64,000 nucleotides of DNA from Mycolicibacterium moriokaense (GTDB taxonomy: Bacteria > Actinomycetota > Actinomycetes > Mycobacteriales > Mycobacteriaceae): assembly GCF_010726085.1 (NCBI RefSeq), contig NZ_AP022560.1, positions 806,001 through 870,000 on the forward strand, in the 5' to 3' direction. The notes beneath the pieces were generated by a model. That model had not been told where the DNA came from and searched no databases. It worked only from the letters and a program-made list of their open reading frames with translations. Shown here piece after piece: positions 51,581 through 58,391 of this stretch. The position numbers were made by a program, and so were the translations under genes. Each line of letters starts with the position of its first letter. Position 1 is the first letter of the stretch.

Positions 51581-53824
51581 TTGCCTTTTGCCGAAGACTT
51601 TGTGCCGGTCGGTACGCCCGTCGATCTCGACAACTGCGCGCGCGAGCCGATCCACATTCCCGGCAGTGTCCAACCCCGCGGTGTGCTGGCCGTGGTGCGG
51701 GAGTCCGACTTCGAGGTACGGCAGGTCAGCGCCAACGTCGCGGACCTTCTCGCACGCCCCGCGGAAAGCGTTCTGGGGCAGCACCTGTCATCGCTGATCG
51801 GTTTCGACGAGGCGACCCGCGTCGAACAGGCGACGTCGGCGCCCGGTGATCTACGCCAACGCAACCCGCTCGAATGCGTCATCGACGTGGCAGGTGAGCC
51901 TCTTGCGTTCGACGTCATCCTGCATCGCGAGCCGGGCGGCGTGCTGCTTGTCGAGGTCGAAATCGCCTACGGCGAACGGCCGTTCTCCTTCCCGAACACC
52001 TATCTGGCCGTGCGCAGTTCGATCGACGAACTAAACCGCGCCGCCACCCTGACCGAGCTCTACGACGCCACCGCGCGCTCGGTCCGCGAGCTCACCGGCT
52101 TCGACCGCGTGATGGTGTACCGCTACGACGAGCAGTACAACGGCGAGGTCGTCGCCGAGGCCAAGCGTGACGAGCTCAACCCGTTCCTGGGTCTGCACTA
52201 CCCGGCGTCCGACATCCCGGCGCAGGCTCGCGCGTTGTACGAGAAGAACTGGCTGCGGCTCATCGACGACGTCGGCTACACGCCGTCGCCGCTGCTGCCC
52301 GCGGTCGACCCGGATCGGGGCGAGCCGACCGACCTGACACACGCGACGCTGCGCAGCGTTTCGCCGATCCACATCGAGTACCTGCAGAACATGGGTGTGC
52401 AGGCCTCGATGTCGATCTCGCTGCTGCGGCACGGCCGGCTGTGGGGACTGATCGCGTGCCATCACTACGCCGGTCCGCATCTCCCGCCGTTCGGGACCAG
52501 GGCGGCCGCCGAATTCCTCGGCTCGACCCTGTCGCTGCGACTCGTCGACCAGTTCGAGGACGAACAACTGCACAAGCGGCTGGCCGCGCAGGCCGTCCTG
52601 AGCAAGCTCACCGCCGCCACGCTGGACGACAGTGAATCGCTGACCGCGGTGCTGCTCGGCGCTCCCGACCTTCTCGACCTCGTGCCCGCCGACGGCGCCG
52701 TGGTCAACATCGGCGGCGAGTACCAGGCACTGGGGTCGGTGCCGCCGCAGGACGCGGTGGCCGCCGTCGCGGCATGGGCGCGTGACGCGGGCGACGAGAT
52801 CGCCAGCAGCGAGTCGCTGTCCCGGGAGTTGCCGGACCTCGACCTCGATCCGCAGCTGACCTCCGGTGCGCTGGCGATCAACCTGCCAGACGGGCAGTAT
52901 GCGATCTGGTTTCGAAGCGAGGTGCTGCGTTCCGTCGACTGGGGCGGCGACCCGCACAACAAGGCGATCGCGACCAGCGAAGGCGACCAGGTTCGGCTGA
53001 GTCCACGCAAGTCCTTCGATCGGTGGCGCGAGATCGTGCATCGCTGCTCCGAGCCGTGGGTGACGACCGAGGTCGAATCCGCCGAGTCGCTGCGGCGACA
53101 CCTCGTCGAATCGCTGTACCGCCGCACCCGGGGTGCGCTTCGCGTCGCGGAGACCCTGCAGCGCAGCCTGTTGCCGACGTCGATACCCACCGTCGACGGC
53201 TGGCAGCTGTCTGCGCACTATGAACCCGCCGTCGGGGGGCGCGTCGGCGGCGACTGGTACGACGCGTTCGAGACTCGCGACGGTCGGTTGATCGTGTTGA
53301 TCGGGGACGTCGCGGGTCATGGCATGGCCGCCGCCGGAACGATGGCGCAGGTGCGAAATGCGTTGCGCGCGTATCTGTTCACCGGTGACACCCCCGCCGA
53401 AGCGCTCGATCGGCTCAACGATTTCTGCCTGCACATGGTCTCGCGCGCGTTCGTCACCGTGATCATCGCGCGCGTCGATCTGGGGTCGGGGTCGGTTGAA
53501 GCGGCGTGCGCCGGCCACCTGATCCCGTACATCACCCGACCAGGACAGGTGGCTGTCCCCGCGCCCGTCCGGTTGTCGCCGCCGATCGGAGCGATCGGTA
53601 CGACGTATGACGCGAGCACCTTCGCGATCGCACCCGGCCAGGGTTTGGTGATGTTCTCCGACGGCCTCGTGGAACGGCGCGATGAGCCGATCGACGACGG
53701 CATCGAGCGGTTGGCCGAAACACTCGGTGGCGCAGCCGATTCGACGGCGACCTGGATCTCGACGGCGATGGCGTCGAGCGAAACCGACGACGACGTCACC
53801 ATCGTGACCCTCCGCCGTCTCTAG
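51581..53824 (+). CDS. bacteriophytochrome with SpoIIE/PP2C phosphatase output
   Basis: 747 aa: PAS (about 10-120), GAF (135-320), PHY (330-510), linker helix, SpoIIE phosphatase (535-747). The bilin-attaching Cys19 is in DNCAREPIHIPG; Asp211 (YPASDIP) and His264 (SPIHIEYLQNMG) are spaced 53 apart as in Deinococcus BphP; the PHY tongue has PRKSF and WGGDP. The output has GGRVGGDWYDAF and IGDVAGHGMAAAGTMAQ. It should photoconvert in red/far-red light and dephosphorylate an anti-sigma antagonist. TTG start at 51581 is supported by GGGGG 8 bases upstream. No heme oxygenase gene for the bilin is seen here. Confidence 0.93.
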   Translation: MPFAEDFVPVGTPVDLDNCAREPIHIPGSVQPRGVLAVVRESDFEVRQVSANVADLLARPAESVLGQHLSSLIGFDEATRVEQATSAPGDLRQRNPLECVIDVAGEPLAFDVILHREPGGVLLVEVEIAYGERPFSFPNTYLAVRSSIDELNRAATLTELYDATARSVRELTGFDRVMVYRYDEQYNGEVVAEAKRDELNPFLGLHYPASDIPAQARALYEKNWLRLIDDVGYTPSPLLPAVDPDRGEPTDLTHATLRSVSPIHIEYLQNMGVQASMSISLLRHGRLWGLIACHHYAGPHLPPFGTRAAAEFLGSTLSLRLVDQFEDEQLHKRLAAQAVLSKLTAATLDDSESLTAVLLGAPDLLDLVPADGAVVNIGGEYQALGSVPPQDAVAAVAAWARDAGDEIASSESLSRELPDLDLDPQLTSGALAINLPDGQYAIWFRSEVLRSVDWGGDPHNKAIATSEGDQVRLSPRKSFDRWREIVHRCSEPWVTTEVESAESLRRHLVESLYRRTRGALRVAETLQRSLLPTSIPTVDGWQLSAHYEPAVGGRVGGDWYDAFETRDGRLIVLIGDVAGHGMAAAGTMAQVRNALRAYLFTGDTPAEALDRLNDFCLHMVSRAFVTVIIARVDLGSGSVEAACAGHLIPYITRPGQVAVPAPVRLSPPIGAIGTTYDASTFAIAPGQGLVMFSDGLVERRDEPIDDGIERLAETLGGAADSTATWISTAMASSETDDDVTIVTLRRL

Positions 53825-53840
53825 GCCGTCGGCCCGCGCG

Positions 53841-54660
53841 GTGTTCGGTCCGATCGTGGCGCATCGGGTGATTCAATGGGGTACCGGCACGGTCGGCGGC
53901 GAGATCGTCACCGCCATTCTCGACCACGACTACGATCTCGAGCTCGTCGGCGCACTCGTGTACTCCGAGACCAAGAACGGCGTCGACATCGGCACGCTCG
54001 TCGACCGTGAGCCGATCGGCGTCACCGCGACCACCGACGTCGGCCAGATCCTGGACCTTGACGCCGACTGCGTCATCTACACGCCCCGCACCGCGGCGTT
54101 CGACGACGTATGCCGACTGCTGGAGAGCGGCAAAAACGTTGTCACGACTGCCTTTCTGTTCCATCCCGCACGGATCGAGCCTGGGGACCGCGACCGCGTC
54201 CTCGCCGCCTGCGAGAAGGGCGCCAGCTCCGTACACGGCAGCGGTATCAACCCCGGCAACCTCTCCGGTGTACTCCGTGGAGGCCATCCCCGCCGAACAG
54301 GATCACCAGATCTTCGACCATCTACTGGCCGCGGGCACGACGGCCGGGCAGCGCTGGAACTGGGTGGGGCGCCGAAACGGAGAAGCACTCATCGAGATCG
54401 AAACGCTGTGGACGGTGGGCGGCGAGTACCCCGGCCACTGGCCCAAGCCCGCGCACGGTTGGACGCTCACCATCGAAGGCGATCCGTCGATGCGCACCCA
54501 CTCCATGTCGCTGGCCAGCTTCACCCGCGACGCCACCATAGAAGAACACGTGCGCTCGGCCAGTGTCGCGACGGGAATGCAGATCCTCAATGCGGTGCCC
54601 GCCGTGTGCGAGGCGCCACCCGGATTCGCGTCGACGCTGCCGTTAATTCGTAGTCATACG
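53841..54660 (+). pseudogene. dihydrodipicolinate-reductase-like NAD(P)-binding protein, broken
   Basis: Frame 1 (GTG 53841 to about 54270) has VIQWGTGTVGGEIVTAILDH, CVIYTPRTAAFDDVCRLLES and HGSGINPGNLSGVL. The C-terminal part (EAIPAEQDHQIFDHLLAAG, WTVGGEYPGHWPKP, EGDPSMRTHSMSLASF) is in another frame. Family members have about 350 aa; the two parts total about 270, so roughly 80-100 central residues are missing besides the frame change. Sits in the middle of the signalling island and is presumably a leftover. Confidence 0.75.
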
Positions 54661-54785
54661 GGTTCGGGCGACTGCACAGGGGTTAACGGCTATTGTCGGA
54701 GGGTCACTAAAAAAGAGGTCAGAGCGGCCACGGTGACAAGCGCGAGAAAACGTGGTTGCGATTGTCTTCGGTATATAACCCTGTG

Positions 54786-55973
54786 GTGAGTGCGTCCGAC
54801 TATCCGGCCGCCGATGAGCGGCCGTTCTCGGTGCTGCTCGTCGAAGACGACCGTGCCGATGCGGTGCTGGTCGAGGAACTGATCGCCGACGCGGACCCCG
54901 ATATGCAGGTGGTATGGGCGCCGTCGATGGGGGCTGCGCGTCGTCACCTGGAGGTATCCCGTCCGGACTGCATGCTGCTGGACCTCAACCTCCCCGACGC
55001 GGACGGCATCAAGGCGCTGGACCAGGTCGCCCGACACGACGTGACGATGCCGGTCGTCGTGCTGACCGGTCTCCACGACGAGCACTTCGGCGTGTCAGCC
55101 CTCGCGGCGGGAGCGCAGGATTACCTGGTCAAGGGCCGTGTCGAGCCCGAGACGCTGCGCCGCGCGCTGCTGTACGCGGTCGAGCGCAAACGCGCCGAGC
55201 TGACCGCCGTGGAACTGCATGCCAGCGAACTGCGCGCCAAGGAGAACGCCCGCCTCGAACGCGGTTTGCTGCCGTCGCCGCTGTTACTGGACAACCCCGG
55301 CGTCGACATCGTCGCGCAGTACCGGCCCAGCAGGCAGTTCGCCCTTCTGGGCGGCGACTTCTACGACTTCGTCCAGACGCCCGACCGCACCGTGCACGTC
55401 ATGGTGGGTGACGTGGCAGGCCACGGCCCGAACGAGGCCGCGCTCGGGGTCGCCCTGCGCATCGGCTGGCGCGCGCTGACGTTCGCCGGTCTGCGCGGTA
55501 ATGAGCGGATGCGTCAGCTGGAGCGGATCCTGAGCACCGAACGCCCCGGCACGAGCATCTTCGCGACGGTGCAGTCCGTGGCACTCTCCCCCGACGATCT
55601 GAGCTTCAACGTGGTGTCCGCAGGGCATCCGGGCATGCTGCTGCACGGACCCGATTCGGTGGAGTGGTTGGAGCCCGAGGTGGGGCCGGCGCTGGGGCTC
55701 AACGGGTACGAATGGCCGCTGAACATCATGGAGCTTCCACGGGGCTACGGCCTGGTGCTGTTGACCGACGGACTGATCGAAGGACGCTCAGGGCACGGCA
55801 CCGAGCGGCTGATGGAGGCGGGTCTGCTCGAGGTGGCGCGATCCTACGCGCACGTTCCCGGCGCGCAGTTCGTCGATGCGTTGATCAACGACGTCGAGCG
55901 CCGCGCGCAGTCCGTCGGCGGCATCAGCGACGACATCGCGGTGGTGCGGGTCGAGCGGACGTCGACCGGATGA
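54786..55973 (+). CDS. response regulator with SpoIIE phosphatase domain
   Basis: 395 aa. Receiver domain with acidic VEDDRADA, phospho-acceptor Asp66 in CMLLDLNLPDADG, Thr in VLTGLHD and Lys in YLVKGRV. Then a coiled stretch and a SpoIIE/RsbU phosphatase: LLGGDFYDFVQ, VMVGDVAGHGPNEAALGVAL, GISDDIAVVRVE. Phosphorylation should switch on dephosphorylation of an anti-sigma antagonist. GTG at 54786 (54783 is equally possible) after TATATAAC. Overlaps the histidine kinase gene (ATGA), its likely partner. Confidence 0.92.
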   Translation: MSASDYPAADERPFSVLLVEDDRADAVLVEELIADADPDMQVVWAPSMGAARRHLEVSRPDCMLLDLNLPDADGIKALDQVARHDVTMPVVVLTGLHDEHFGVSALAAGAQDYLVKGRVEPETLRRALLYAVERKRAELTAVELHASELRAKENARLERGLLPSPLLLDNPGVDIVAQYRPSRQFALLGGDFYDFVQTPDRTVHVMVGDVAGHGPNEAALGVALRIGWRALTFAGLRGNERMRQLERILSTERPGTSIFATVQSVALSPDDLSFNVVSAGHPGMLLHGPDSVEWLEPEVGPALGLNGYEWPLNIMELPRGYGLVLLTDGLIEGRSGHGTERLMEAGLLEVARSYAHVPGAQFVDALINDVERRAQSVGGISDDIAVVRVERTSTG

Positions 55974-57541
55974 AATGGCAACCGACCGTTCAGGGTTGGC
56001 AGAACCTGGTCCTGGCGGCCATGGGTGTCGTCGTGCTCGCCGGATCCATCGCCGGTGGGGTGCTGTTGAACCGCAACGACGACGTGTCCAACGAGATCAC
56101 CGCGGAGATCGGGCCGATGCGGATCGCGGCGTACCAATTGCAGGCAGCGCTGCGCGATCAGGAGACTGCGATCCGCGGGTACGCGATCACCGCCGACCCG
56201 CGGTTTCTGGAGCCGTATGTCAACGGCCAGAAGGCCGAAGCTGATGCGGCGCAGGTGATCCGGGATCATGCCGGTGAGCGCGCGAAGCTGCTGGCCGATC
56301 TGGAGGACATCGAGCGCATCTCCGCGACGTGGCGCAGCGAGTACGCCGAGCCGCTGATCACCGAGATCAAACCGACCGCGCCCGAGGTCGGCGACACCGG
56401 CACTGCCACGCGGGGCAAGGCCCTGTTCGATACCCTCCGGCAGAACTTCGACTCGCAGCTGCTGCACCTGCAGCAGGAACGTGATGACGCGGTCAATGAG
56501 CTTGCGACACTGCAGAATTGGCGCAACGCCGTCTTCACCGCGATCGTCGTCGCATTGATCGTCGCCGCGGTGCTGTCGGCGGTGGTGATCCGAACCGCGG
56601 TCACCCGTCCGCTCACCGCGTTGGCCGCATCGTGCCGAAAGATCACCCAGGGCGACTTCAGCGAAAAGATCGTGCCCCAGGGCCCCAAGGACATCCGGGC
56701 CATCGCGGCGGACGTCGAGGACATGCGCCAGCGGATCATCGACGAACTCGAAGCCACGCAGAAGGCGCGAACACAACTGGCCGAGCAGGCTCTCGAGTTG
56801 CAGCGGTCCAACGCCGAGCTCGAGCAGTTCGCCTACGTCGCCAGCCATGATCTCCAGGAGCCGCTGCGCAAGGTCGCCTCCTTCTGTCAGCTCATCGAGA
56901 AGCGCTACGGCGACAAGCTCGACGAACGCGGCACCGAGTACATCGCGTTCGCCGTCGACGGCGCCAAGCGCATGCAGACTCTGATCAACGACCTGCTCAC
57001 GTTCTCCCGCGTCGGCAGGCTCAACCCGACGCGCGCCGAGGTCGACCTCGGCGCGACGCTGGACGAAGCGATCGAAAACCTCGACACCGCGATCGCCGAA
57101 TCGGGTGCCGAGATCGTTCGCGAAGGGCAGCCGCTGCCGCGAATCACGGGAGACCCCACGCTGTTGACGATGGTGTGGCAGAACCTCATCGGCAATGCGG
57201 TGAAGTTCAAACGCGACGGGGTCGCCCCACGCATCGTCGTCACTTGCGAACGCGACGAGGACGAGGCCGATGCGCCGTGGACGCTCACCGTGACCGACAA
57301 TGGCATCGGCATTCCCGAGGAGTTCTCCGACAAGGTGTTCGTGATCTTCCAGCGCCTGCACGGCCGCGATGTCTACACCGGCACCGGAATCGGCCTTGCG
57401 CTGTGTAAGAAGATCACCGAAAACCACGGCGGCCGAATCTGGATTGACAACTCCTTCCAAGGGGGAACCAGAGTCCGATTCACGATTCCCGTTGCCGCCG
57501 GCGAACGCGTCGCGGCCGACCTGGAAGGAACACCTGCATGA
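55970..57541 (+). CDS. CHASE3 sensor histidine kinase
   Basis: 523 aa. Helix 12-34, an extracytoplasmic CHASE3 domain (about 35-180; RDQETAIRGYAITADPRFLE), second helix 186-208, HAMP, coiled coil (QKARTQLAEQALELQRSNAE), then the phospho-acceptor His293 in YVASHDLQEPLRKV and ATPase with QNLIGNAVKFKRDG and TDNGIGIPEEFSDKVFVIFQ, GTGIGLALCKKI. The DLQEPLR H-box is of the phytochrome-kinase type. Overlaps genes on both sides by ATGA, implying one signalling operon. Confidence 0.93.
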   Translation: MKWQPTVQGWQNLVLAAMGVVVLAGSIAGGVLLNRNDDVSNEITAEIGPMRIAAYQLQAALRDQETAIRGYAITADPRFLEPYVNGQKAEADAAQVIRDHAGERAKLLADLEDIERISATWRSEYAEPLITEIKPTAPEVGDTGTATRGKALFDTLRQNFDSQLLHLQQERDDAVNELATLQNWRNAVFTAIVVALIVAAVLSAVVIRTAVTRPLTALAASCRKITQGDFSEKIVPQGPKDIRAIAADVEDMRQRIIDELEATQKARTQLAEQALELQRSNAELEQFAYVASHDLQEPLRKVASFCQLIEKRYGDKLDERGTEYIAFAVDGAKRMQTLINDLLTFSRVGRLNPTRAEVDLGATLDEAIENLDTAIAESGAEIVREGQPLPRITGDPTLLTMVWQNLIGNAVKFKRDGVAPRIVVTCERDEDEADAPWTLTVTDNGIGIPEEFSDKVFVIFQRLHGRDVYTGTGIGLALCKKITENHGGRIWIDNSFQGGTRVRFTIPVAAGERVAADLEGTPA

Positions 57542-57987
57542 CGGCCGAGCCCGCCACCGTGCGCGCTATCGACGTACTGCTCGTCGAGGACGACCCCGGA
57601 GACGAGTTGATCACTCGGGAAGCGTTCGAGCACAACAAGATCAAGAACAATCTTCACGTCGCACGCGACGGCGAGGAAGGCCTGGACTTTCTGTACCGTC
57701 GCGGTGTCTACGAGAACGCCCCGCGGCCCGACCTGATCCTGCTGGACCTGAATCTGCCGAAGTACGACGGCCGCCAGCTGCTCGAGCAGATCAAATCCGA
57801 TCCGGACCTCAGCCACATCCCAGTGGTGGTGCTGACGACGTCCTCGGCGGAGGAGGACATCCTGCGCAGCTACAAGCTGCACGCCAACGCGTATGTCACC
57901 AAGCCGGTAGATCTCGATCAGTTCATGAACGCGGTGCGGCAGATCGACGAGTTCTTCGTTCAGGTGGTGCGGCTGCCGCAACTCTAA
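57538..57987 (+). CDS. single-domain response regulator, Rcp1 type
   Basis: 149 aa. VEDDPGDELITREAF, Asp70 in LILLDLNLPKYDG, TTSSAEEDIL and YVTKPVDLDQF. The insert GLDFLYRRGVYENAPRPD is typical of Rcp1, the response regulator of cyanobacterial phytochrome Cph1. No output domain; it likely relays phosphate from the CHASE3 kinase to another protein. Overlaps the kinase gene by ATGA. Confidence 0.92.
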   Translation: MTAEPATVRAIDVLLVEDDPGDELITREAFEHNKIKNNLHVARDGEEGLDFLYRRGVYENAPRPDLILLDLNLPKYDGRQLLEQIKSDPDLSHIPVVVLTTSSAEEDILRSYKLHANAYVTKPVDLDQFMNAVRQIDEFFVQVVRLPQL

Positions 57988-58391
57988 GGGGCTGCGAATC
58001 GCATTCGCACCGTGGTGCCCTTTGTCGAGGAATTGACGTCGACGCCCGTGCTCACCGCACGCATGATCGACAGCCCGCGGCCGCGGGTGCTCGGCTGGGT
58101 CGGGGGCGTCTGCCACACACCGTCATCGGCGATGTCGACGACGATCTGGCCCTTGTCGTGCACCGCGTCGATGCGGATTCGCCCGCCGATGATGTCGCGA
58201 TACGCGTGCTCGATGCAGTTGGTGCACGCCTCATTGACCACCAGCACGATGTCGGCGATGCGCGAGCTGGACATCCCGATCGGCTTGAGCCAGCCGGTCA
58301 GTTTGCGTCGGATTTCGGCGAGCCGCTCGGCTGCCGCGGGGACCTCGATGCGAAGCGACTCGACCGGTCGCGAACACGCATCGATTGCCAC
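57984..58391 (-). CDS. RsbW-like anti-sigma factor kinase
   Basis: 135 aa, GHKL ATPase fold: IADIVLVVNEACTNCIEHAY (N box), VDIADDGVW (G1) and GRGLSIMRAVSTGVDV (G2). Such proteins bind a SigB/SigF-type sigma factor and inactivate an STAS antagonist by phosphorylation; SpoIIE phosphatases reverse this. It is convergent with the signalling operon and overlaps its end by 4 bases. Start GTG at 58391; GGGGTAC upstream faintly recalls a SigF -10. Confidence 0.88.
   Translation of the reverse strand: MAIDACSRPVESLRIEVPAAAERLAEIRRKLTGWLKPIGMSSSRIADIVLVVNEACTNCIEHAYRDIIGGRIRIDAVHDKGQIVVDIADDGVWQTPPTQPSTRGRGLSIMRAVSTGVDVNSSTKGTTVRMRFAAP

Follow-up and report, generated by a model that had tools for sequence, protein, structure and literature searches.

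Partner switching is the main control of sigma factors of the SigB/SigF type, and the inputs that feed it in mycobacteria are mostly unknown. The closest described system is RsfSR of M. smegmatis. Its putative operon comprises the genes of RsfR (a receiver fused to a PP2C phosphatase) and RsfS (a CHASE3 kinase), along with a third gene, for a receiver, and is convergent to rsbW2, which itself lies after rsfB (PMC10950880; PMC7693655). RsfR was measured to dephosphorylate RsfB, and its phosphorylation by RsfS lowers this phosphatase activity; RsbW2 is the RsfB kinase and does not bind SigF; the system is tied to the respiratory state; and deletion of sigF abolishes carotenoid pigment (PMC10950880). 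Loss of the third gene, MSMEG_6128, left a SigF marker unchanged (PMC10950880/PMC7693655). The same report, from 2024, states that the sensory module had remained elusive (PMC10950880). Here we describe a locus of this kind in Mycolicibacterium moriokaense that is preceded by a bacteriophytochrome ending in a SpoIIE phosphatase. It lies in a stretch of 64,000 nucleotides (hereafter the window), positions 806001–870000 of a single-contig genome of 6,225,779 bases (genome code G000, contig C1).

An earlier note on this DNA had read the genes as a phytochrome-driven partner-switching island. On our reading of the sequences, the core of the island corresponds to the known RsfSR system, and a phytochrome input to it, which has good comparative support, would be new.

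Results

A phytochrome phosphatase beside an RsfR-RsfS-type locus

The five genes concerned, whose domains had been given in the earlier note, are all found where it had placed them, each with Pfam matches above the curated cut-offs.

51581–53824, plus strand: phytochrome with PP2C output (PAS_2-GAF-PHY-SpoIIE, 747 residues, TTG start)
54756–55973, plus strand: RsfR-like receiver-SpoIIE phosphatase (Response_reg and SpoIIE; start at TTG 54756 or GTG 54786; phospho-acceptor Asp66, counted from 54786)
55970–57541, plus strand: RsfS-like CHASE3-HAMP histidine kinase (CHASE3, HAMP, HisKA, HATPase_c; His293)
57538–57987, plus strand: Rcp1-type single receiver (149 residues, Response_reg, Asp70), the positional counterpart of MSMEG_6128
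57984–58391, minus strand: RsbW-like HATPase_c_2 protein (GTG start), convergent with the receiver gene and of a subfamily distinct from RsbW2

The first gene encodes a BphP-type sensor with an intact pocket mounted on a SpoIIE phosphatase, and the protein is predicted to bind bilin. PAS_2, GAF, and PHY of the phytochrome core score 73, 59, and 150 bits, the top Protein Data Bank (PDB) matches of the sensor are phytochrome sensors (E down to 1.5e-115), and the SpoIIE domain reaches 134.6 bits, compared with 109.6 for that of the receiver protein (Pfam cut-off 25). Cys19, Asp211, His264, and the PRKSF motif at 475–479, which had been called intact, are indeed so and at the positions given, accompanied by Tyr180, Arg181, Tyr182, Tyr267, and His294, and by aspartates 558, 561, 576, 694, 737, and 738 of the PP2C domain. 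In proteins of these kinds, the N-terminal Cys carries the bilin, the GAF Asp, His, and Tyr residues form the pocket, PRxSF is the tongue, and the SpoIIE aspartates bind metal.

By gene order and domains, the basis for matching RsfR, RsfS, and MSMEG_6128, the other four genes correspond to the RsfR-RsfS locus described for SigF control in M. smegmatis, with genes for a receiver-PP2C phosphatase, a CHASE3 kinase, and a receiver in succession and rsbW convergent to them. The ATGA overlaps noted previously are present at 55970–55973 (RsfR/RsfS) and 57538–57541 (RsfS/receiver), where they are the start sites of the downstream genes; the RsbW-like gene is convergent and hence lies outside the operon. 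We considered whether it is RsbW2 and rejected this, since the window RsbW and the RsbW2 type form separate groups and it falls outside the clade of convergent RsbW2-type proteins, where the RsbW at C1:1779707–1780153 groups instead. With RsbW2 at this position in M. smegmatis being an antagonist kinase that does not bind SigF (PMC10950880), and the window RsbW belonging to another subfamily, the earlier label of anti-sigma kinase is a putative one.

The phytochrome adjoins partner-switching genes in separate clades

Among 396 genomes of the genus, PHY domains occur in 99 and a PAS-GAF-PHY-SpoIIE phytochrome in at least 83. These figures derive from 109 PHY places outside the window genome, 89 of which, chiefly the best-scoring, were examined; six (L153, L154, and L237–L240) were dropped as distant or of other architecture, and 84 loci in 83 genomes, window included, were kept. 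Because the dropped L239 carries a distant SpoIIE, 83 is a lower bound.

Within 5 kb of the phytochrome, a radius cut short by contig ends at some loci, a STAS, RsbW, or other SpoIIE gene was found in 39 of the 84 loci and a canonical heme oxygenase in 22, one of which is also among the 39. These 39 comprise 16 with a divergent STAS gene, whose mid-point is 0.3–0.4 kb from the phytochrome start; nine with a convergent STAS and RsbW pair; six with RsfR at 85–100% identity; five with another SpoIIE and an RsbW-like gene at 29–34%; and three with one weaker or more distant gene (2.3–4.9 kb). The divergent STAS type is confined to 16 of the 396 genomes (163–274 bits) and in all 16 stands at the phytochrome locus, the next-best match, at 116 bits, being unlinked to a phytochrome. 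Its serine aligns with the RsfB-type serine in the three members that were aligned and, by eye, in 15 of the 16. A midpoint-rooted tree built from 81 phytochromes separates the 16 STAS-linked proteins from those linked to rsfRS, each set forming a clade with a support of 1.0, which suggests that the association of phytochromes with partner-switching genes arose more than once. Chance proximity in the window would be well under 1% for a position within ~1 kb, because only about seven other partner-switching places, by hand count, exist in the 6.2 Mb genome. An RsfR relative is present in 80 of the 83 phytochrome genomes vs 195 of the 313 others (uncorrected for kinship). Altogether, there is good comparative evidence that the phytochrome phosphatase would act on partner-switching antagonists.

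The protein itself is strongly conserved. Tyr180, Arg181, Tyr182, Asp211, His264, Tyr267, His294, and His295 are kept in all 84 loci, PRxSF in 83, and the phosphatase aspartates in 81, and PRxSF and GGDWYD are 81 residues apart in 80 loci. An N-terminal Cys is found in 76 of the 84 called open reading frames, and in all 84 by a loose tblastn test. Beyond the genus, other families of the order also have matches that span both the sensor and the phosphatase, and at E ≤ 1e-60 some match is found in 70 of 298 order genomes, a count that takes in genus members and matches to the sensor only. Public records, many of them mycobacterial, carry such proteins under the names SpoIIE family phosphatase, histidine kinase, or phytochrome.

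Three side observations concern these proteins. In another family of the order (f16, genomes G410–G658), many members carry one or two phytochrome-SpoIIE relatives at ~54% and ~44% identity, often in longer frames. Other PHY-domain proteins of the genus (G266:C60, G334:C1, G224:C1, G158:C52, G046:C24, and others) have frames of ~970–1150 or 680–850 residues and are probably of other architectures. Directly 3' of the phytochrome in 12 loci, L160 for example, is a small same-strand gene (106 residues; an ABM-type monooxygenase by eye).

The phytochrome is an accessory to a widespread module

At E ≤ 1e-30, RsfR has relatives, including a few weak ones, in 275 of the 396 genomes of the genus. Neighborhoods were compared for the best 69 of at least 80 loci in named genomes, all at ≥68% identity to the window RsfR, with 11 distant matches (≤41%) left out. 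RsfS and receiver genes lie downstream of RsfR in 66 of the 69, two of the three misses being at contig ends. The kinase, whose H-box had previously been called phytochrome-type, and the Rcp1-like receiver belong to the RsfSR module and hence are no sign of a phytochrome link; we rejected them as such, because both are found with RsfR whether a phytochrome is there or not. In 17 loci, the convergent gene is of the window RsbW type, and in nine there is an RsbW2-RsfB pair, among which is found the full published order including RsfB, as in M. brisbanense (L124) and M. aquaticum (L133). Eight loci instead have an RsbW-like and a STAS gene upstream of rsfR, and the remaining 35 have none of the three query types. 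In these eight (L088, L090, L091, L099, L100, L105, L107, and L118; M. hodleri and others), the STAS gene is directly 5' of rsfR, followed further 5' by the RsbW-like gene with SpoIIE. Separately, an RsfR relative (73%) in Mycobacterium sp. URHB0044 (L089) has neither RsfS nor a receiver gene in a 21 kb locus.

A phytochrome of the window type stands in the examined flanks of only two of the 69 RsfR loci (L073, and L140, where it is broken), leaving 67 without. We compared 23 loci for synteny, 19 of them of the window's clade, with flank genes named by our own reading of the sequences; L140/L241 and L076/L242 each denote one place, and clade loci L078, L080, L082, L084, and L085 were left out. 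As far as each stretch reaches, the clade shares the order ABC permease, prephenate dehydrogenase, tRNA deaminase, rsfR-rsfS-receiver, rsbW, secreted protein, and tgt. None of these flanks is shared by four loci outside the clade (L119, L120, L124, and L129), where the module therefore has another chromosomal position. In nine clade loci, the stretch from the tRNA deaminase gene to rsfR contains neither a phytochrome nor the dehydrogenase-like gene. The window, L073, L170, L193, L208 (5.8 kb from rsfR), and L236 have the phytochrome, and the window gene and five of its six clade relatives retain an unbroken frame and the pocket and metal residues. Compared with M. barrassiae, the window sensor is 95% identical and RsfR 92%. 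In M. neglectum (L140/L241), the phytochrome gene changes frame near residue 479 and its alignment is split in two there; the phosphatase part and the remaining locus still align.

These comparisons indicate that the window's clade either gained the phytochrome at, or lost it from, a site that keeps the SigF-control module throughout, and that the phytochrome is an accessory input at this locus in one clade, dispensable there. The term "phytochrome-driven" is hence not borne out, given that 67 RsfR loci are without such a phytochrome and that sister species lacking one carry the module in the corresponding chromosomal position. What stands of the island proposed earlier is an intact BphP sensor on SpoIIE beside partner-switching genes, with SigF, an RsbW1-like gene, and STAS genes elsewhere in the genome, and STAS and RsbW neighbors in other clades.

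One further feature lies between the phytochrome and rsfR.

53841–54789, plus strand (alignable over 53865–54663): broken DapB_N-type dehydrogenase-like gene (DapB_N 29.6 bits, cut-off 25.6)

Against intact copies in relatives, its alignment falls into two parts, with ~79 residues lost and the frame changed. The gene is open in five relatives (L170, L193, L208, L236, and L241) and was not found at the M. barrassiae locus. In the window it is decaying and has no part in the mechanism considered here.

Candidate targets lie elsewhere in the genome

The earlier note had placed the STAS antagonist, the sigma factor, and a heme oxygenase outside the window, which agrees with searches of the whole genome. 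PF01740 (E ≤ 0.001) finds STAS matches at ten places, none of them in the window, and SigF is at C1:5229577–5230365 (486 bits, cut-off 372). The gene directly upstream of SigF, at C1:5230368–5231141 (start unsettled), is called RsbW1-like here for its position and for a HATPase_c_2 match that is weak, at 33 bits; a STAS gene is convergent to it. A STAS-RsbW operon at C1:1779324–1780153 groups with the RsfB-RsbW2 pairs of other mycobacteria. A second cluster, at C1:350.6–355.7 kb, encodes a STAS protein with the serine position, a two-STAS protein, an RsbT-like protein, a SpoIIE protein, and a PAS-SpoIIE-RsbW protein. Judged by these matches, the genome encodes each member of a SigF partner-switching set: the sigma factor, an RsbW1-like protein, and a STAS antagonist that bears the serine. 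The phosphatase domain of the phytochrome is 35% identical to the SpoIIE part of the PAS-SpoIIE-RsbW protein and 31% identical to RsfR, and the sequence does not choose its substrate.

Chromophore supply

For the heme oxygenase, absence from the window extends further, as PF01126 finds no canonical one anywhere in the genome. Such an enzyme is present in 46 of the 83 phytochrome genomes vs 80 of the 313 others; 37 carriers, the window genome among them, lack it. The one heme oxygenase adjoining a phytochrome that we checked (L206) is canonical (PF01126 144 bits, best PDB match E 2.1e-31). A PF14518 protein (L289) was considered as a heme oxygenase and set aside, its PDB matches being HrmI, SznF, and a diiron protein. 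The window genome has a PNPOx/DUF2470 protein, presumably HugZ-like, that matches the heme-binding MSMEG_6519 (E 2.6e-135). It also has an orthologue of MhuD (E 6e-55 to 1e-54 against Rv3592-type structures), the product of which is described as mycobilin (PMC8801480). We also considered the phytochrome as the sensor of light-induced mycobacterial pigment, which does not fit because, according to a review, it is short-wave light that induces pigment (PMC7755587).

Discussion

The account that we favor, and regard as reasonably probable, is that a light-gated PP2C phytochrome dephosphorylates an RsfB-like STAS protein and thereby releases SigF, in parallel with RsfR. A light-sensing phosphatase would have been added to a SigF-control locus as a second, independent input. 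The older part of the locus—rsfR-rsfS-receiver and the convergent rsbW—would work as RsfSR does in M. smegmatis, with RsfR dephosphorylating the STAS antagonist unless it is itself phosphorylated by RsfS. In the phytochrome, photoconversion of a bound bilin would raise or lower the protein's own SpoIIE phosphatase activity through a linker of fixed length. That phosphatase would act on an RsfB-like STAS protein from another part of the genome, removing the phosphate from its serine; the best candidate for this protein is C1:1779324–1779668 and the second C1:350652–351005. Once unphosphorylated, the STAS protein would take the RsbW1-like anti-sigma factor off SigF.

Several observations weigh against this account. 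No partner-switching or heme oxygenase gene of those sought lies within 5 kb in 24 of the 84 phytochrome loci, and the STAS-linked and rsfRS-linked sets have one origin each, so that the counts are not independent events. At the window's own locus, the phytochrome is outside the rsfR operon, is absent from two sister loci that keep the dehydrogenase (L074 and L076/L242), and is broken in M. neglectum. Since phosphatase identity to RsfR is 31%, a shared substrate is not implied by sequence. Because the AlphaFold model of the window phytochrome is poor (mean predicted local distance difference test score 60.7, fair mainly over SpoIIE; 32 sequences, 75–94% identical), a helical linker between sensor and phosphatase is only weakly predicted. 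PF01126 finds no heme oxygenase in this genome or in six others of the clade (G080, G124, G145, G169, G277, and G341). Finally, the SigF-type promoter motif GTTT-N14-18-GGGTA is found within 300 bases upstream of none of the 84 phytochromes, and a looser form occurs twice, vs 1.3 expected from Markov-resampled controls.

The same motif has no match within 350 bases upstream of 60 RsfR genes (again with Markov-resampled controls), and GTTT-N14-17-GGGTA has none in the window. SigF autoregulation through such a promoter, which we had entertained, is thus unsupported upstream of both the phytochromes and the RsfR genes.

The phytochrome might feed a partner-switching pathway other than that of SigF, for instance the cluster at C1:350.6–355.7 kb, whose STAS protein keeps the serine position and whose PAS-SpoIIE-RsbW protein is the one closer to the phytochrome phosphatase. 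The five loci with another SpoIIE and an RsbW-like gene would fit such a pathway as well. However, the difference between 35% and 31% identity is small, the linkage in the window's clade is to rsfRS, and RsfR relatives are more frequent in phytochrome genomes than in others, if without correction for kinship; we regard this alternative as rather unlikely. Quite unlikely, in our view, is that the phytochrome is a passenger that came by chance to lie between the tRNA deaminase gene and rsfR, functionally untied to the latter and now eroding. The arrangement has a single origin, nine sister loci have neither phytochrome nor dehydrogenase there, the phytochrome is missing or broken in the three loci named above, and the adjoining dehydrogenase is decaying in the window and not found in M. 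barrassiae. A passenger would nevertheless have to be squared with the intact frame, pocket, and metal residues in the window and five of six clade relatives, and with the same phytochrome adjoining other partner-switching genes in separate clades.

The lack of a PF01126 heme oxygenase in the window genome and six clade relatives raises another alternative, namely that in this clade the protein is no longer a bilin photoreceptor and its sensor controls the phosphatase constitutively or in response to another trigger. We consider this highly unlikely, since this clade and the heme-oxygenase carriers alike keep the pocket residues and the N-terminal Cys, an MhuD orthologue and the DUF2470-type match to MSMEG_6519 are encoded in the genome, and bilins might come from outside. 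The favored account, of a light-gated phosphatase acting on an RsfB-like antagonist, can be extended more boldly. In about a fifth of mycobacterial species, red/far-red light might gate the general stress sigma factor by way of a phytochrome serving directly as the phosphatase of the antagonist. In the lineages that have no canonical heme oxygenase, that of the window among them, the chromophore might be a bilin either produced by noncanonical heme breakdown in mycobacteria, as MhuD mycobilin or as a product of the MSMEG_6519-like protein, or taken from the environment. This extension we hold to be doubtful. Were the favored account true, a photoreceptor that is a SpoIIE phosphatase, with a dedicated STAS neighbor in one clade, would connect red light with a stress sigma factor by a short route, and this in a genus that is not photosynthetic.

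Comparison with described systems places the locus as follows. Bacteriophytochromes with a SpoIIE/PP2C output, an effector class named in a figure legend of PMC9587094, share the architecture of the window protein; in the open-licence literature, we found no paper that gives such phytochromes a substrate or a link to mycobacterial partner switching or SigF. The RsfSR/rsfB-rsbW2 locus of M. smegmatis (PMC10950880; PMC7693655) is like the window in its domains, their order, and the convergent RsbW. It differs in that the window RsbW is of another subfamily with no STAS gene after it, that a phytochrome-phosphatase gene lies upstream, and that MSMEG_6128 is given a DNA-binding domain in those papers, whereas the window receiver protein has only Response_reg. 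RsbK-RsbY of Bacillus cereus, in the account given by PMC10950880, likewise combines a CHASE3 kinase with a receiver-PP2C phosphatase acting on the antagonist, but with a phosphorylation sign opposite to that of M. smegmatis RsfSR and without a phytochrome. Light is described as reaching a factor of the SigB/SigF family via RsbW-RsbV partner switching in Bacillus and Listeria, with YtvA/Lmo0799 as the blue-light input and a red-light input besides (PMC3019169). There, the LOV protein acts via the stressosome and the red-light route in Listeria is unknown, whereas the photoreceptor in the window is predicted to be the phosphatase itself.

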